Shown here one piece after another: positions 1,642 to 22,576 of a DNA stretch of 22,578 nt. A program made the position numbers and the translations under genes. Origin of the DNA: a virus; IMG/VR virus record IMGVR_UViG_3300001242_000097, positions 1 to 22,578 of that record; one strand, 5' to 3'. The stretch's first letter is position 1; each line of letters opens with the position of its first letter. The notes beneath the pieces were generated by a model. The model saw nothing but the letters and a program-made list of their open reading frames with translations. It had not been told where the DNA came from and searched no databases.

Positions 1642-2388
1642 TTAAACCTTTCTAATCTTTAATTTTTTAACATCTACTCCTAACGCTTTCGCAACCTCGT
1701 CCATAGAGTATTCATTACTCTTAATGCTCAATTCCTTCTCAACGTCTATTCCACTTATCTCCAGGAATAGTTCATTGTTCCAATTAGGCAATGTTAATGT
1801 CTTTCTTCTATCCTCATCACTCGCATTTTCCCAACTCTTCCTGAATGCCTCTTGGTATTCATAACTTCTTAAATAACCACCAGTCGTTTTATAAGTATCG
1901 TGTTCTGTCTTCTCTTCTTCTGTCATTGCATTTTCTGGTATCCATTCCGTAATATCAAAATAGAAGTAATCAGGAAACTCTAAATCGTTCATCGCAATCT
2001 CGCAGTCCATATTAAATATTCTTACTTTCGGTTCTGTAGTATTTAAGAACCCTGTATTACTATCCCCTGTATTCCAATTCCCTGTATTCCTATACCCTGT
2101 ATTCCGATTCCCTGTATTCCTATTCCCTGTATTACTATACCCTGTATTACTATACCCTGTATTCCTATCCCCTGTATTCCAATTCCCTGTATTCCTATAC
2201 CCTGTATTCCGATTCCCTGTATTCCTATTCTCTGTATTCCAATTCCCTGTATTCCTATTCCCTGTATTACTATACCCTGTATTCCTATCCCCTGTATTAT
2301 AATCCCCTGTATTACTATCTTCTACTACCGTTTTGATAGAATCCTTCTTCACATACTCAACCCCATCCACCACTATTTCGTTTTTCAT
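1642..2388 (-). CDS. Pentapeptide-repeat protein with conserved phage C-terminal domain
   Basis: Residues 25-119 are 19 tandem five-residue units of the form x-N-T-G-x, where the first position is mostly Arg, Ser, Trp or Tyr and the last is Asn, Asp or Tyr. Pentapeptide repeats are known to fold as a right-handed quadrilateral beta-helix. The NTG type resembles the NxGx repeats of several bacterial and phage proteins. One unit has Glu in place of Gly (NTE) and the last is NTT. The C-terminal domain, about 120-248, contains F-D-I-T-E-W-I-P, a KTTGGYL motif and an acidic C-terminus. I have seen this pairing in phage proteins of unknown function. The start at 2388 has no Shine-Dalgarno sequence. 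A role as a DNA mimic or adhesin is only a guess. Confidence 0.8.
   Translation of the reverse strand: MKNEIVVDGVEYVKKDSIKTVVEDSNTGDYNTGDRNTGYSNTGNRNTGNWNTENRNTGNRNTGYRNTGNWNTGDRNTGYSNTGYSNTGNRNTGNRNTGYRNTGNWNTGDSNTGFLNTTEPKVRIFNMDCEIAMNDLEFPDYFYFDITEWIPENAMTEEEKTEHDTYKTTGGYLRSYEYQEAFRKSWENASDEDRRKTLTLPNWNNELFLEISGIDVEKELSIKSNEYSMDEVAKALGVDVKKLKIRKV
2032..2316 (-). repeat. Tandem 15-bp repeats coding the NTG pentapeptides
   Basis: Nineteen consecutive 15-bp units, readable on the plus strand as variants of CCCTGTATTCCTATT, encode the pentapeptides. Differences cluster at the codons for the first and fifth residues. A higher-order unit is visible: the four-pentapeptide order RNTGN-RNTGY-RNTGN-WNTGD occurs twice, seven units (105 bp) apart. 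This suggests growth by duplication of blocks, and the array is likely to vary in length by recombination or slippage. Confidence 0.9.
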
Positions 2389-16748: not shown

Positions 16749-17095
16749 TATTTATTCTCTAAAGTAATCTCATTGTGATCTAAATCGGTTGAATTGGCTT
16801 TCACTGCTGGATTGATTCCATCTACAAGTCCCAAGTACAGTCCTGTATCGTAGTTGGTTATTTCATCTTGTGGCAGTAACACATACTCAGGTGGTATATA
16901 TATGATTGTTTTATTAACAGTTCTTAACCCTCCACCGTTATATTGAATAGTTTCACTGTAACTTTCTATCCTGCATGGTATGTAATCATTTGAGTTAACT
17001 GCACTTGATGAATTCGTGAAAGTACCAAGACTATCTTGGCTATTATTATAGTAACGCAGTGCTGTGATTTTGTGTATGTATAAGCTATCTAACAT
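16748..17095 (-). CDS. Head closure (stopper) protein
   Basis: The 115-residue protein has the short beta-barrel pattern of head closure proteins: an opening segment LYIHKITALRYYNNSQDS, the strand IPCRIESYSETI, and TVNKTIIYIPPEYVLLPQDE, where an I-x-P turn before a P-Q-D-E segment is common. It closes the connector after DNA packaging and is the platform for the tail. Its position between connector and gp10-like protein matches the HK97/SPP1 order. It overlaps the connector stop by 11 bases. Confidence 0.65.
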   Translation of the reverse strand: MLDSLYIHKITALRYYNNSQDSLGTFTNSSSAVNSNDYIPCRIESYSETIQYNGGGLRTVNKTIIYIPPEYVLLPQDEITNYDTGLYLGLVDGINPAVKANSTDLDHNEITLENK

Positions 17096-17780
17096 TGCTA
17101 AGTTTGTAACGTTTAAGTAAATCGATTACCCTACTCATTTTTGCGTCACTCTCGGCCGAGGAATTCTTCTGAGAGTATGTTTGCGTACTAAAGGAGTCGA
17201 TTCCACTTACAACATCAAAACCTGCGAATAGATAATCTACCAATAGTGCTGTAGCCATTCTTACATCGTAAGGGACTTCGTTATCTGTTTCAGTACCAGA
17301 GTAATCAACCTTGTAACCAGACACATATCTAACCCATATATTGTTTGCCGACTTATCTATATAGTATGGGTATGGAACTGTAGCACTTTTACTAAACGTA
17401 GGTAAGATTTTTATAATCCCCTCTGCTGTAAGTACTTGTAGATATGTATCAGATATCTCAGTAAACGTACCAACTACCTGAGTCCATACTTTTGTTACAC
17501 TTACAAGAGGAACATTCATAAGTACAAACTGGTTGTACTCTGAACTTCTTAATACCTGATTAGGGAATATCTCATCAATGGTTTGCTGTAGGAAGTATCT
17601 ATTGCACATATCATCTACCATACCGCAAGCTGCGATAATAGTATCGTTAAGATATGGGGATTTTGTTACATCCGTAGAATATTTTACTAGGTTCGGAAAC
17701 ATACTTGTCCGAATCCAACATTCATCGATCGTTGTTGGATGCCTAGGATTGTTCTTTGTACCATCTGGCGTTAAAGACAT
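17085..17780 (-). CDS. Head-tail connector (gp6/gp15-like)
   Basis: The 231-residue product has the helical plan of head-tail adaptors. An early helix (YLNDTIIAACGMVDDMCNRY) is followed by a beta pair (FVLMNVPLVSVTKVWTQV) where LxxxPLVSVTKV is characteristic, then WVRYVSGY, a motif very common in phage gp6-like proteins. A last helix pair (YDVRMATALLVDYLFAGF) and a basic end follow. It forms a ring beneath the portal. TAG ends it inside the next gene's start. Its start has a weak leader. The glycosyltransferase gene separates it from the capsid gene, which is not usual. Confidence 0.8.
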   Translation of the reverse strand: MSLTPDGTKNNPRHPTTIDECWIRTSMFPNLVKYSTDVTKSPYLNDTIIAACGMVDDMCNRYFLQQTIDEIFPNQVLRSSEYNQFVLMNVPLVSVTKVWTQVVGTFTEISDTYLQVLTAEGIIKILPTFSKSATVPYPYYIDKSANNIWVRYVSGYKVDYSGTETDNEVPYDVRMATALLVDYLFAGFDVVSGIDSFSTQTYSQKNSSAESDAKMSRVIDLLKRYKLSNVR

Positions 17781-17833
17781 TGTTTGATAACATTAACTTA
17801 TTTTATACTTTAATATTATCATTTTGTCCTAAC

Positions 17834-19114
17834 CTAGAACTTTCTATCTAAATAATCAACTAATTGTTGTGCAACGGTTACATTGTTGTAGTTTTCAAGT
17901 ACAAACTTTCTAGCTTTCTTACCTTTCTTCTCTGCTTTGTCCCTATTGTTGTATACCTCTCTCATAAGCTCTACAAGGTGGTCTACGCTAGGTTCGGCCC
18001 ATTGCATACCATCTGCTTGTAATGAAGGTGGATAGCCCTTCCAATCGCCTCTAGGGACGTCCACTATCTTATAGTTCAATGGATATGCTACATCAGGGAG
18101 TACAAAGTCTCCAGTTCCACTCCAATTGGTCGCTATGGTTGGAAGTCCAACACACATAGCCTCTAGTGGTGGTAATCCGAAGCCTTCTCCCCTTGTAGGG
18201 AATACAAAACAGTTAATCTTTGCAAAGAACTCTGATATTAGTTCCTTAGGGCTTAATGATTGAGTATACAAGCGGATTCTATCATCGCTCTTTAGTAGTT
18301 CACCATCGGCAAACCAGGCGTGAGCAATACCGCCAACAGGAATAGTCTTAATGAATATGCCTACATTAGGGTAGTCCTTCTTAGGGAATGCCTTTCTGAA
18401 TGCTTTTACGAGTACATCAGTACCTTTTCTATATGTAAGTGTACCCATTGTTCCAAATATGAATTCATCATCTTTAGGTGGCTTGACCTCAGGGAAATTG
18501 TCCACCTCAAGGCCAATAGGGATAACTTCCACGTCTCTTTTGACACCACTATCGATAAAGGCTTGCTTCTGGTGTGAACATGGTACAATTACCCTTTCGC
18601 AACTGTTATTCATGTTGTCTACCCAACTCTGTGGAATTCTTGAGGCTTCTAACATAGTATATCCTATATATCTTTCCGCTACTCTGTTCTTGAATTCAAA
18701 GGCAGGGAAGCATTTAACATAGAATGAATCTATTTTGTCCGTAGTCCTCTCTAATATCTTTGATAATCTGTCAGGAATATAGTGTAAATCCGTTCCTTGC
18801 CATGTACTAGCCACAACAGATAGATTACAAACCTTGTCCAATCCTAGCATGAACCCTGAAGAAGCGTTACCATAGCCGTTGTTATACCCTATCGGGCCGT
18901 CCCAAATGAGTTTCCTGTCATCTTTCCACTTAGCGGGGTCAAATGGGGAATATGGAAATGAGGTCTTTTCGCTTACAGCTATCGTATATTCCTTGTTTCT
19001 AGCTAATTCCAACGCCATAGAATCTGGAATCTCACACGAACCATTCATAAATTGATAAATCTGCCCTTTTAGGAATACAGAAATGTTTGGATACCTTTCA
19101 CAGAATACTTTCAT
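17834..19114 (-). CDS. GT4 glycosyltransferase with phage-type N-terminal extension
   Basis: Residues from about 65 on form a GT-B glycosyltransferase of family GT4. The second domain carries FGTMGTLTYRKGTDVLVKAF (with R229-K230, sugar-nucleotide phosphate contacts in the family) and the EX7E motif E310-GFGLPPL-E318, then GLPTIATNWSGTGDFV. The donor is presumably a nucleotide sugar, and the acceptor is unknown: virion protein, DNA or host envelope. Residues 1-45 (KGQIYQFMNGSCEIPDSMAL, then ELARN) look, from memory, like a small stand-alone protein that often follows the capsid gene in phages. The gene has its own leader after a terminator, with AAGGAGC nine bases before the ATG. TAG stop. Confidence 0.85.
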   Translation of the reverse strand: MKVFCERYPNISVFLKGQIYQFMNGSCEIPDSMALELARNKEYTIAVSEKTSFPYSPFDPAKWKDDRKLIWDGPIGYNNGYGNASSGFMLGLDKVCNLSVVASTWQGTDLHYIPDRLSKILERTTDKIDSFYVKCFPAFEFKNRVAERYIGYTMLEASRIPQSWVDNMNNSCERVIVPCSHQKQAFIDSGVKRDVEVIPIGLEVDNFPEVKPPKDDEFIFGTMGTLTYRKGTDVLVKAFRKAFPKKDYPNVGIFIKTIPVGGIAHAWFADGELLKSDDRIRLYTQSLSPKELISEFFAKINCFVFPTRGEGFGLPPLEAMCVGLPTIATNWSGTGDFVLPDVAYPLNYKIVDVPRGDWKGYPPSLQADGMQWAEPSVDHLVELMREVYNNRDKAEKKGKKARKFVLENYNNVTVAQQLVDYLDRKF

Positions 19115-19170
19115 ACTATTTTGCTCCTTAATTTAAGTAGGGAAAGTGGAGCGACTTTCCCCATATACAT
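19111..19170 (-). CDS. Possible 19-aa leader peptide before the glycosyltransferase
   Basis: An ATG at 19170, five bases after AAAAGG, opens a 19-codon frame (MYMGKVAPLSLLKLRSKIV) whose TGA overlaps the glycosyltransferase ATG as ATGA. The overlap would couple translation, and the frame runs through the 8-bp leader hairpin. It is short and could be due to chance. The precise overlap is the main argument for it. Confidence 0.3.
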   Translation of the reverse strand: MYMGKVAPLSLLKLRSKIV

Positions 19171-19225
19171 TCTACCTTTTAGTACATTGCTCCTATGTAC
19201 TTTTTCCTAAATAGAATATAGCACA
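19115..19225 (-). promoter_or_regulatory. Structured leader of the glycosyltransferase gene
   Basis: On the minus strand an extended -10 (TGCTATATT at 19223-19215) lies right after the capsid terminator, without a good -35. Two hairpins follow. The first is GTACAT-AGGAGCA-ATGTAC at 19200-19182, with a Shine-Dalgarno-like loop. The second is GGGAAAGT-CGCTCC-ACTTTCCC at 19161-19140. The second loop contains GCTCC, which is complementary to GGAGC in the first loop and in the real ribosome binding site. Confidence 0.4.
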
Positions 19226-19227
19226 TT

Positions 19228-19261
19228 GTACAAAAAAGGGGGTGTTTTACCACCCCCTTTT
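19228..19261 (-). terminator. Intrinsic terminator after the major capsid gene
   Basis: An 11-bp perfect stem, AAAAGGGGGTG (19261-19251) with CACCCCCTTTT (19244-19234) in minus-strand reading, encloses a 6-base loop and runs into six Ts. It begins 18 bases after the capsid stop codon. This is the strongest terminator in the window and separates capsid from glycosyltransferase expression. The opposite strand also reads TTTT after the stem, so it may act both ways. Confidence 0.9.
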
Positions 19262-19279
19262 CAAAATCTACCAATAGAC

Positions 19280-20323
19280 TTAGAGAGTATCTAAGACGTT
19301 CGTGATTTTTGCCATCCATGGTTCAGCCTTGACTTCCATGGCGGTATACTCATTGACAAAGAAATCTCTCTTGTCAGCGGTTCTACCTAACTCTTCCATT
19401 CCAAGAGCCTGTAAATCAACCATTTTGATATAAGGCATAGATAGAATGAACACTGTTGAAGTTGTTGCACCACTTGGAGTACTTGTTGATCCATTATCCA
19501 AAGGATATGTGTTCCCAGGATTAATGAAGAAATCAGGTTGTACATTCAAGTTTCCAATGCTTGTTAAGATATTCTTTACTCTTTGTCCGTAGACAATATT
19601 ATCTCTAACTTCACCACTTACAACTGTAACTGAGGTTGTACTCTCATAGAGGTTACTGATTTTGTCAGCTACTCTGAATGATGTGAACATATCAGTTGCG
19701 AATCCACCCTGTTGACCAATTAAGTTACAAGCCTGGTCTATCAAAACCTTTGATATTGTTGCACCTGCAGCGTCTACTACGTTAGTAGTAATCAAAGAAT
19801 CTAAACCATTGTAAGCAGCTTCTCCTGTAGTTGGGTCTATATAGGTACTATCACCCCAGAAGTTCAACCACTCTTCAGCTTGAATTGCTCGTCTTGTAGT
19901 AGCCTCAATCTCCTCTGCGTATAGGTTTACTAATGCAGCACCTTGAGCTTGTGCCATTCCTGTTACTGTTCCGCTATAACCAACTGCTTTGTAGCTTGTG
20001 GTTCTAGTGTAGTATAGGCTGGACTTTGCTTGTGGCAATGCACCATCACCATATACTGCTTTTCTTGGGTCTGTACTCTCACCTGAAGCAAATAATGCCT
20101 TTCTTAGGTTGAATGTGAATGCACTACCCACACCCTGTCTTCTTGAGACCATATCTCTAAAAGGTGTATTTCTGTTTGCGATACTTAGCAAAACGCCATC
20201 CAAATCCTGTCTTGGTGTTATTGCGTTTGCTGTCCCTACGGTAGGACCATTGATATCAGATGTATCGATAGCTTTCTCAATTCTTTCGACATTCTCCGAC
20301 ACTAATTTTCTAATGTCTTTCAT
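19280..20323 (-). CDS. Major capsid protein (HK97 fold)
   Basis: The 347-residue product lies directly after the protease/scaffold gene, is rich in Ala, Thr and Gly, and shows the usual elements: a short N-terminal helix (RKLVSENVERIEKAID), the P-F-R-D-M-V-S-R-R-Q-G-V-G segment near residue 55, a spine helix region (YAEEIEATTRRAIQAEEWLNF), and the C-terminal P-domain strand FFVNEYTAMEVKAEPWMAKI. This resembles the SU10/DUF5309-like branch of capsid proteins. No long N-terminal delta domain is present, which fits an external scaffold supplied by the upstream gene. The leader lacks Shine-Dalgarno (AAAAACAAGAACA). A strong terminator follows. Confidence 0.85.
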   Translation of the reverse strand: MKDIRKLVSENVERIEKAIDTSDINGPTVGTANAITPRQDLDGVLLSIANRNTPFRDMVSRRQGVGSAFTFNLRKALFASGESTDPRKAVYGDGALPQAKSSLYYTRTTSYKAVGYSGTVTGMAQAQGAALVNLYAEEIEATTRRAIQAEEWLNFWGDSTYIDPTTGEAAYNGLDSLITTNVVDAAGATISKVLIDQACNLIGQQGGFATDMFTSFRVADKISNLYESTTSVTVVSGEVRDNIVYGQRVKNILTSIGNLNVQPDFFINPGNTYPLDNGSTSTPSGATTSTVFILSMPYIKMVDLQALGMEELGRTADKRDFFVNEYTAMEVKAEPWMAKITNVLDTL

Positions 20324-20341: not shown

Positions 20342-20920
20342 TTATGCTAACTGTTCTGCCACGTCTGTTATAGTCTTAGGCTTGTCTTCGTTGTCGGTTG
20401 ATTTCTCAATAACTGGTAAACTTGCCCTTGTCTTTTTCTGAAGTGGTAGCCTTTCCAAATTCTCGACCTTATCCTGAAGTGATTTAATAATTACGTTGTT
20501 TTTTTGAATCATTTCTAAAGCTTCCTCAATTGGTGTTAGAGGCTTTGGCTGCGAAACAGGTTCATCGACCTTATCAGTCTTATTAACAACTAGCTTACTA
20601 ACCAAGTCAGTCAAATTCTCGACTTTCTGGTTTAACTGTTCAATTTTATCCTCTTGAGATTCAGATTTGTCTTCCTCAGCAGAATCGGTAGTTTCCACTT
20701 CCTCTTCTTGCTTAGATTCCTCTTCTTGAACTGCCTCTTGGGCTTCTTCTTGAGCATCATTCTTTTCCTCAGCTACTTCTTCGGATTTCTCCTCTTCTTT
20801 AGCTTCAGTGGCCTCTGATACTTCCACAACTTCATCAACCTCCTCAGATTTCTCTGGTTCGATTGATTTGGTTTCTTCTACAACAGGTTCTACCTGCTCT
20901 TCTTTTATAATCTCTGTCAT
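20342..20920 (-). CDS. Nested scaffold protein from an internal start
   Basis: Codon 189 of the protease gene is an ATG at 20920 preceded by AAAAAGGAGC at six-base spacing, a better ribosome binding site than that of most genes here. It is in frame with the protease, so it would give a 192-residue protein consisting only of the acidic, coiled-coil scaffold part. This is the arrangement of lambda C/Nu3, where the short form is the true scaffold. A chance Shine-Dalgarno in a Lys/Glu-rich stretch is the alternative, because AAG GAG codes Lys-Glu. Confidence 0.6.
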   Translation of the reverse strand: MTEIIKEEQVEPVVEETKSIEPEKSEEVDEVVEVSEATEAKEEEKSEEVAEEKNDAQEEAQEAVQEEESKQEEEVETTDSAEEDKSESQEDKIEQLNQKVENLTDLVSKLVVNKTDKVDEPVSQPKPLTPIEEALEMIQKNNVIIKSLQDKVENLERLPLQKKTRASLPVIEKSTDNEDKPKTITDVAEQLA

Positions 20921-21484
20921 TTCTTGCTCCTTTTTAATATTATCTTCTTGAGTCTTTTTATAACTCTTAGAAACTACTTCCAAAAATGATGGCTGGTAAG
21001 CAGGCCTTGTTGTTATGCTTATAGCCTCTGGTTGAATATCAATGTATTCAGTAATGAACTTCTGTAACATTTCACTGTAAACAGTCTTAGCCTTTTTAAG
21101 TAATCCTTCTACAGAAAACGCATACTTTTTACCTTGCCCTACCTTTTTGACGAGGTATGGTACTGCTGGATGTTCTTTGTCTAATCTAGCCTTAATAAAC
21201 AAACTATCGTCTTCTAATAGTCTAGCCTCAACAACTTCTCCAAGATTTGCCAATACTTCTCCCTTTTCGTGGTTATCAGTAAGTGGTAGAGGCAATCCAT
21301 CTACGAACTTCTGTAATGCACTTCTGCTAAACCTACAATCATCTAAGTCCTCGCTTGTTCCACTTGCTATACCTTGAACAAACCAGTCCCCTGATTCCTC
21401 ATAAGCCTTTTCAATTTGTACAAAGTATTTGAAATCTCCCATAAGAGATATTGTATCACTTCGTTTTTTGACTACTTTAGACAT
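20342..21484 (-). CDS. Prohead protease fused to acidic scaffold domain
   Basis: Residues 18-170 are a phage prohead serine protease of the XkdF/HK97 type. They include VQGIASGTSEDLDDCRFS, the likely catalytic His72 in LTDNHEKGE, the likely nucleophile Ser124 in YAFSVEG, and an acidic segment with the typical EAISITTRPAY at about 153-163. Residues 180-275 are extremely rich in Glu, and 280-350 form a coiled coil (SQEDKIEQLNQKVENLTDL). This is as expected for an internal scaffold that the protease later digests. The capsid protein lacks its own delta domain. The gene overlaps the preceding small gene by eight bases. An internal start at 20920 is listed separately. Confidence 0.85.
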   Translation of the reverse strand: MSKVVKKRSDTISLMGDFKYFVQIEKAYEESGDWFVQGIASGTSEDLDDCRFSRSALQKFVDGLPLPLTDNHEKGEVLANLGEVVEARLLEDDSLFIKARLDKEHPAVPYLVKKVGQGKKYAFSVEGLLKKAKTVYSEMLQKFITEYIDIQPEAISITTRPAYQPSFLEVVSKSYKKTQEDNIKKEQEMTEIIKEEQVEPVVEETKSIEPEKSEEVDEVVEVSEATEAKEEEKSEEVAEEKNDAQEEAQEAVQEEESKQEEEVETTDSAEEDKSESQEDKIEQLNQKVENLTDLVSKLVVNKTDKVDEPVSQPKPLTPIEEALEMIQKNNVIIKSLQDKVENLERLPLQKKTRASLPVIEKSTDNEDKPKTITDVAEQLA

Positions 21485-21766: not shown

Positions 21767-22576
21767 TTAATTTGGACTCGCACACGGTGCTCGATACTTT
21801 TTACCAGCGATTGGTCCTTCAATATCTAAATAAAACTGGTAGAAGTTTGCGTCCTCATTGGTTGCGTCTTCATCTCTATCTGTGAACACTACTAGGTATC
21901 TTGTATCTGTTACATGAGCATAATTTTGATAACCATAGAACGTAAGAGTAGAGTCTACAATCGGCCTATCTATATGTGTATCCTTTCTATATCCAGTAGG
22001 TGTAGAAAATGCATCCTCTGCATAAGCCCAATAGATAAACAGTCCTTCATCATTTATATTGTATTTAGCCGTGGTGTAGTACGTCCTTCTATCTGCTCCC
22101 AAGACGATTAGTTTATCTCCGTGTAAGAATGTGGTCGGTGCAGGAGTAAAATAGGGTGCTCCTATGTTTGTCCTTGTCGGTGTACTCCATGTTGCACCAT
22201 AGTCATCACTCGTAATCTGGTAATAATTAGAGCCATAGGTGGTATAGTTTTGGTCTCTACATATACAGATTATCTTACCCCCTCCAATATACGAATAACT
22301 CGGCTCGCTTAAATTGTATTCGTGGCCAACGGTATAGTCCCCGACAATCACTTCATCTCCCCATGTAGCTCCGTCCGTGCTAAATTGTACAGACAGTCTA
22401 TAACTTGTAGCCTCGTCAAAGAAGCCTTTCATATACCCTTTTGTAGGAACAACTATTATATTTCCGTAAGCCACAGGGTCAGTAAGAGAGGAAACAACGT
22501 CCACTGGGTCGCTCCATGTGTCTCCATCATCATCACTGTAAAAGGTTACCCCTGTTTTTATGGCAGGAGCGGTATA
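21767..22576 (-). CDS. Asp-box (BNR/sialidase-like) protein, 3' part only
   Basis: The frame is open to the window edge, so only the last 269 residues are seen. The GTG at 22504 is internal: 24 more codons upstream include SDDDGDTWSDP. Three Asp-boxes (S-x-D-x-G-x-T-W type) are visible: SDDDGDTW, STDGATW and SDDYGATW. They mark a beta-propeller as in sialidases and other BNR-repeat proteins. Catalytic Arg, Tyr or Asp residues cannot be judged from this part. The end (FYQFYLDIEGPIAGKKYRAP) is beta-like. The position ahead of the head genes is odd for a tail fibre or receptor enzyme. A head decoration or fibre role is possible. Confidence 0.75.
   Translation of the reverse strand, partial: YTAPAIKTGVTFYSDDDGDTWSDPVDVVSSLTDPVAYGNIIVVPTKGYMKGFFDEATSYRLSVQFSTDGATWGDEVIVGDYTVGHEYNLSEPSYSYIGGGKIICICRDQNYTTYGSNYYQITSDDYGATWSTPTRTNIGAPYFTPAPTTFLHGDKLIVLGADRRTYYTTAKYNINDEGLFIYWAYAEDAFSTPTGYRKDTHIDRPIVDSTLTFYGYQNYAHVTDTRYLVVFTDRDEDATNEDANFYQFYLDIEGPIAGKKYRAPCASPN

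Follow-up and report, generated by a model that had tools for sequence, protein, structure and literature searches.

A GT4 glycosyltransferase with an added N-terminal domain behind the capsid gene of an uncultured phage lineage: a candidate virion-modifying enzyme

Why does a glycosyltransferase (GT) gene stand among the head genes of a virus, and what is the role of the residues that precede its catalytic domain? Both questions are raised by a locus on the minus strand of the window, the whole stretch of 22,578 nucleotides of viral DNA that was analysed. Gene order on that strand is protease/scaffold, capsid, GT4 and head-tail adaptor, followed by the tail genes, which places the GT gene between a terminator-ended SU10-type capsid gene and the adaptor gene. 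The genes and protein domains are as follows.

20342-21484, minus strand: protease/scaffold gene
19280..20323, minus strand: SU10-type major capsid protein gene (PF17236, E=7e-19), whose product is a candidate substrate
17834..19114, minus strand: N-domain + GT4 glycosyltransferase gene, 426 aa (ORF, Pfam, PHROGs, EX7E motif)
18977..19114, minus strand: N-terminal domain in residues 1-46 (bbbbab), with about 20 linker residues after it (AF2 model, family conservation)
17837..18916, minus strand: GT4 catalytic domain, residues 67-426, predicted GT-B fold
18161..18187, minus strand: GT4 EX7E motif (E310-E318); in the alignment E310 is invariant and E318 nearly invariant
17781-17833: AT-rich gap of 53 bp between the GT and adaptor genes, with the inverted repeat TGATAATATTAA...TTAATGTTATCA (fold z=-4.2)
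17085..17780, minus strand: head-tail adaptor gene (phrog_442), the conserved downstream neighbour

The enzyme and its place behind the capsid gene

The GT reading frame is complete, with AAGGAG upstream of the ATG at 19114. Its product matches PF00534 (E=3e-17) and, over residues 73-423 only, phrog_2170 (E=3e-36); these matches and the neighbouring genes confirm the preliminary description of a GT4 gene behind the capsid gene in the head block. An AF2 model built from a 35-sequence alignment (mean pLDDT 87.5) aligns over residues 62-426 with the GT-B enzymes BshA and HepE (VIA-align Z about 31), and the structural matches also include TarM and PimA. The basic diphosphate-binding residues R229-K230 are conserved across the family alignments together with E310 and E318. 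The likeness to BshA, HepE and PimA thus covers the fold, the EX7E motif and the full length of residues 62-426, whereas the extra N-terminal domain and the capsid-adjacent locus set the window enzyme apart. From the model it is clear that the gene encodes an intact GT4 enzyme with a GT-B fold, which is predicted to catalyse a retaining transfer with a nucleotide-sugar donor.

The preliminary description took the GT gene to interrupt the normal capsid-to-connector order. An alignment-based scan of viral contigs for GT relatives returned one protein (L026) that is 47% identical across residues 1-426 and numerous others at 29-41%, about 17 of which bear the N-domain. A second scan was seeded with the capsid profile only and recovered 41 loci, which form 36 clusters at 95% capsid identity; synteny was counted in the 34 of these that have 1.5 kb or more of sequence downstream of the capsid gene. 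An N-domain + GT4 gene lies 3' of the capsid gene in 32 of the 34, and in 21 of those 32 no more than 180 nt separate its start from the capsid stop. In L111 the gene is 3.4 kb away from the capsid gene, and the two exceptions, which have no such gene within 6 kb, are L113, where other sugar genes are found, and L115. A scan seeded with the adaptor agrees, adding an N-domain + GT4 gene upstream of the adaptor in L238 and a single new contig without the gene (L250), in which a 1497-aa ORF unnamed by Pfam occupies the slot. The seeds of both scans came from GT-bearing loci, so that the prevalence in these counts is perhaps overstated. Distances between capsid proteins correlate with those between the GTs (r=0.88) and between the N-domains (r=0.63; Mantel p<0.0005).

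Within this uncultured lineage capsid-GT-adaptor is therefore the normal order, and nothing has been broken by the GT gene. It is a phage-encoded, near-core gene at a fixed place, conserved and co-inherited with the capsid gene. The capsid protein itself has no tblastn match among 50,697 phage records. Capsid genes of some relatives are themselves interrupted: one carries a group I intron (L032 795-1052; Rfam E=2e-19), and those of L039/L140 and L143 are split as well.

Two further contigs belong to the same virus, being 100% identical to the window across their overlaps, and one of them (L010/L011) supplies the upstream part of the genome. It adds genes for a phosphoribosyltransferase-like protein, a SAM methyltransferase, a second GT4 and GDP-mannose 4,6-dehydratase (GMD), which form a sugar module 5' of the terminase gene (L010 2226-5447), as well as terminase, portal, Mu-F-like protein and three fibre-like genes. 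The fibre-like genes (L010 11430-15572 and window 21767-22576), which encode a 1037-aa repeat protein, a CBM5/12 protein and a BNR protein, are inserted between the genes for the Mu-F-like protein and the protease/scaffold. Short-repeat proteins are encoded at window 1642-2388 and L010 1025-1438 (NTG-x-x repeats; GSGYGNGSGYG repeats).

The N-terminal domain

Matches of the GT protein to PDB structures begin at residues 60-67, leaving residues 1-61 outside the GT4 fold, and aligned phage and plasmid GTs show homology from about residue 67 and have no counterpart of residues 1-66. Modelled alone with AF2, residues 1-46 adopt a bbbbab arrangement with pLDDT over 90 for residues 1-40. On these models the N-terminus is an added domain separate from the GT4 fold, which begins at residue 62, and this part of the preliminary description holds against the refuting condition that it set, an N-terminus belonging to the GT4 fold itself. 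By HMM the domain was found on none of 80 cellular GTs in a scan of a genome collection; the GTs on which it was found are all from phages.

What the domain resembles is less clear-cut. The preliminary description likened it to a small phage protein that normally stands alone behind the capsid gene, an identification that a weak likeness of fold may favour and that sequence profiles do not bear out. The best viral matches in Foldseek are mostly small phage proteins, and the top PDB match is YqbF (Z 4.6, rmsd 5.9), a weak match since values below Z 8 possibly reflect just a common arrangement. In the skin element of B. subtilis the yqbF gene follows yqbE, the capsid gene. YqbF and the DUF7349-type small phage proteins, to which the domain bears a weak fold resemblance, are stand-alone proteins and have no sequence-level match with the fused domain. 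Neither alone nor as a 35-member family did the domain give a significant Pfam, PHROGs or PDB sequence match, including to YqbF (PF14553), and on its own it has no tblastn match among the 50,697 phage records. A by-eye likeness to stand-alone post-capsid proteins was not borne out by a profile comparison against 3662 ORFs, which did not single out the candidates: 11b gp27 ranked 148, P12002L gp20 224, a small ORF of L113 892, phi10:1 gp078 1008 and a small ORF of L111 1534. The link to such proteins is accordingly weak, and the single plausible stand-alone relative is a small ORF at L083 4939-5202 (profile rank 5). Matches to the GINS B-domain (Z 3-4) were read as chance likeness of a small fold.

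The domain is the least conserved part of the locus, with a median identity of 28% compared with 48% for the GT and 68% for the capsid protein, more divergence than would be expected of a domain held in constant contact with so conserved a protein as the capsid protein. This divergence, and profiles without significant homology to stand-alone phage proteins, would suit an appendage that helps this GT subfamily to fold or oligomerise and has no docking role. We consider that reading doubtful, though it retains appreciable weight. It accounts poorly for a domain that is predicted to fold separately, resembles small phage proteins and is found also on a second, different GT-like protein. The gene for the latter (L043 325-1275; N-domain HMM E=0.002, phrog_12406 E=1e-4) adjoins the N-domain + GT4 gene of its contig, and its sequence is the best sign that the domain is a module, suggesting one that is movable and recruits the enzyme to which it is attached.

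RNA elements at the capsid 3' junction

In the window the capsid and GT genes are separated by a terminator and a leader with the following features.

19232..19262, minus strand: intrinsic terminator directly 3' of the capsid gene, a GGGGGUG/CACCCCC stem followed by U6
19215..19223, minus strand: extended -10-like TGCTATATT past the terminator, a possible promoter by consensus resemblance only
19181..19201, minus strand: leader hairpin 1, AGTACAT-AGGAGCA-ATGTACT, whose loop repeats the Shine-Dalgarno-like GGAGC
19140..19162, minus strand: leader hairpin 2, GGGGAAAGT-CGCTCC-ACTTTCCC, with the loop GCTCC complementary to GGAGC of the GT Shine-Dalgarno
19123..19127, minus strand: Shine-Dalgarno core GGAGC, which may pair with hairpin 2 as the 3' strand of an H-type pseudoknot

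The strong terminator noted in the preliminary description is confirmed by folding: the 68-nt region reaches -25.6 kcal/mol compared with -13.1 for shuffles (z=-4.7), and a consensus terminator scanner overlooked it. The structured leader is likewise present, its two hairpins reaching z=-1.8 when the leader is folded on its own. The claim that the GT gene forms its own unit stands only with respect to the terminator before it; no GC-rich terminator follows the gene, only the AT-rich gap with its inverted repeat, and the gene heads the next transcription unit. TATAAT-like boxes precede the GT start also in terminator-class relatives (L036, L123 and L038).

A simple pseudoknot in the window leader may mask the ribosome-binding site of the GT gene; the 5-nt match of loop and Shine-Dalgarno on which it depends is expected by chance in about 2% of cases. 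A switch is conceivable because the loop of hairpin 2 can pair with the Shine-Dalgarno and that of hairpin 1 repeats GGAGC. In one relative (L108) a hairpin loop, GCGTCTA, is complementary to bases just 5' of the GT start. Most of the 17 genes checked lack a strong Shine-Dalgarno, a possible hint that the host makes little use of this signal. No Rfam family was found in the window.

A different structure, composed of an outer stem, an inner hairpin and a pseudoknot between the loop and the 3' side, occurs at the capsid 3' junction of 19 of 37 relatives (18 scored and L031 by eye). It was scored in 18 of the 37 junctions and in none of 1110 shuffles, a count that is somewhat flattering in that the thresholds were set after examples had been seen; 7556 tiles of the same contigs gave two other sites. 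Besides the junctions at L034 3938-4003, L142 7069-7131 and L115 7017-7075, the scored set comprises 15 more. At most positions of the stems three or four kinds of Watson-Crick pair are seen, the covariation of a conserved structure, and pairing is far lower in both stems when partners are swapped. The pseudoknot strands are pyrimidine/purine biased, and swapping lowers their pairing less (0.69 vs 1.00). Rfam searches around the capsid-GT junctions of nine relatives gave only chance or unrelated matches and no family for the element.

Element and terminator occur together in no junction (0/19/10/8, Fisher p=1e-4). The element adjoins the capsid gene even when an extra ORF precedes the GT gene (L030, L117, L134), and it is retained in L115, where the GT gene is absent; it therefore belongs to the capsid side of the junction.

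A proposed role in virion modification

We hold with moderate confidence that the gene encodes a lineage-wide, virion-modifying GT4 whose N-domain would dock the enzyme to a particle protein. A cytosolic GT4 would be made late in infection beside the capsid protein, the N-domain would bring it to a particle protein, and the enzyme would add sugar there, the most likely acceptor being the capsid protein or else a different major protein of the particle. A GDP-sugar is the probable donor because the same virus encodes GMD, as does L026, where the GMD gene lies directly between capsid and GT genes and is followed by aminotransferase, oxidoreductase and acetyltransferase genes. The same virus thus has sugar-nucleotide and methyl modification genes (GMD, methyltransferase, second GT4). 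A virion-directed role, as the preliminary description envisaged, agrees with the almost universal placement next to the capsid gene and with the shared inheritance of the two genes, though adjacency in sequence would not by itself prove that the capsid protein is the substrate.

GT4 genes are found within virion-protein blocks elsewhere. Gp29 of Arthrobacter phage Kitkat is encoded between the tail terminator and the assembly chaperones, and in L083 (2809-5202) methyltransferase-like, GT2 and GT4 genes and the small ORF that resembles the N-domain of the window protein (blastp E 0.016) are located between a putative tail terminator and a putative major tail protein. In both, the GT genes have tail genes as neighbours instead of the capsid gene, and the GTs lack the fused domain, which in L083 would correspond to the separate ORF after the GT. 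Glycans on mycobacteriophage capsids and tail tubes have been reported (Freeman 2023, as cited in PMC12619734 and PMC11256854). Che8 and its relatives resemble the window virus in encoding GTs together with sugar and methyltransferase genes. Their GT genes lie elsewhere in the genome, near the 3' end in Maravista (PMC11256854), no N-domain fusion is described for them in those two accounts (PMC11256854, PMC12619734), and for the window virus the glycan is a predicted one.

The enzyme might instead glycosylate an envelope polymer or lipid of the host, blocking superinfection or changing serotype, with its place in the late block a matter of timing only. Many phage GTs do modify the host surface (PMC12619734), and a GT4 could equally use lipid or cell-wall acceptors, as enzymes of this family often do, TarM and PimA among the structural matches being examples. 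We nevertheless regard this role as unlikely: position-fixed, near-universal conservation with the capsid gene is untypical of accessory morons, and expression with the structural block would be late for excluding a superinfecting phage. Glycosylation of phage DNA bases, an activity phage GTs can have (PMC12619734), is highly improbable for a head-block gene in a virus in which no base-modification genes were recognised among the examined proteins of the window and L010, and whose sugar-nucleotide and methyltransferase genes better suit a protein or glycan target. It is just as improbable that a moron was recently inserted between the capsid and adaptor genes, a possibility that the preliminary description had allowed; the terminator 5' of the gene, its own leader and the only strong, well-spaced Shine-Dalgarno among the 17 genes checked would fit one, yet the same gene in the same slot, with matching distances, is not sporadic in this lineage, being present in 32 of the 34 capsid clusters.

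Returning to the docked, virion-modifying enzyme, a broader and more tentative proposal is that the junction 3' of the capsid gene serves the lineage as a point of control and modification. A capsid-docking GT4, with the N-domain as a movable adaptor, would glycosylate the assembling particle, and the capsid mRNA would end in either a terminator or the previously undescribed stem-hairpin-pseudoknot RNA. If confirmed, that RNA would be a new class of cis element at the 3' end of a capsid gene. A few mycobacteriophages are documented to have glycosylated particles, and a lineage with a capsid-fixed GT would add to them if the proposed role is true. The findings suggest that virion glycosylation may be inherent to a large uncultured lineage, and a fixed GT with an added domain offers a handle on how such an enzyme finds its substrate on the particle.
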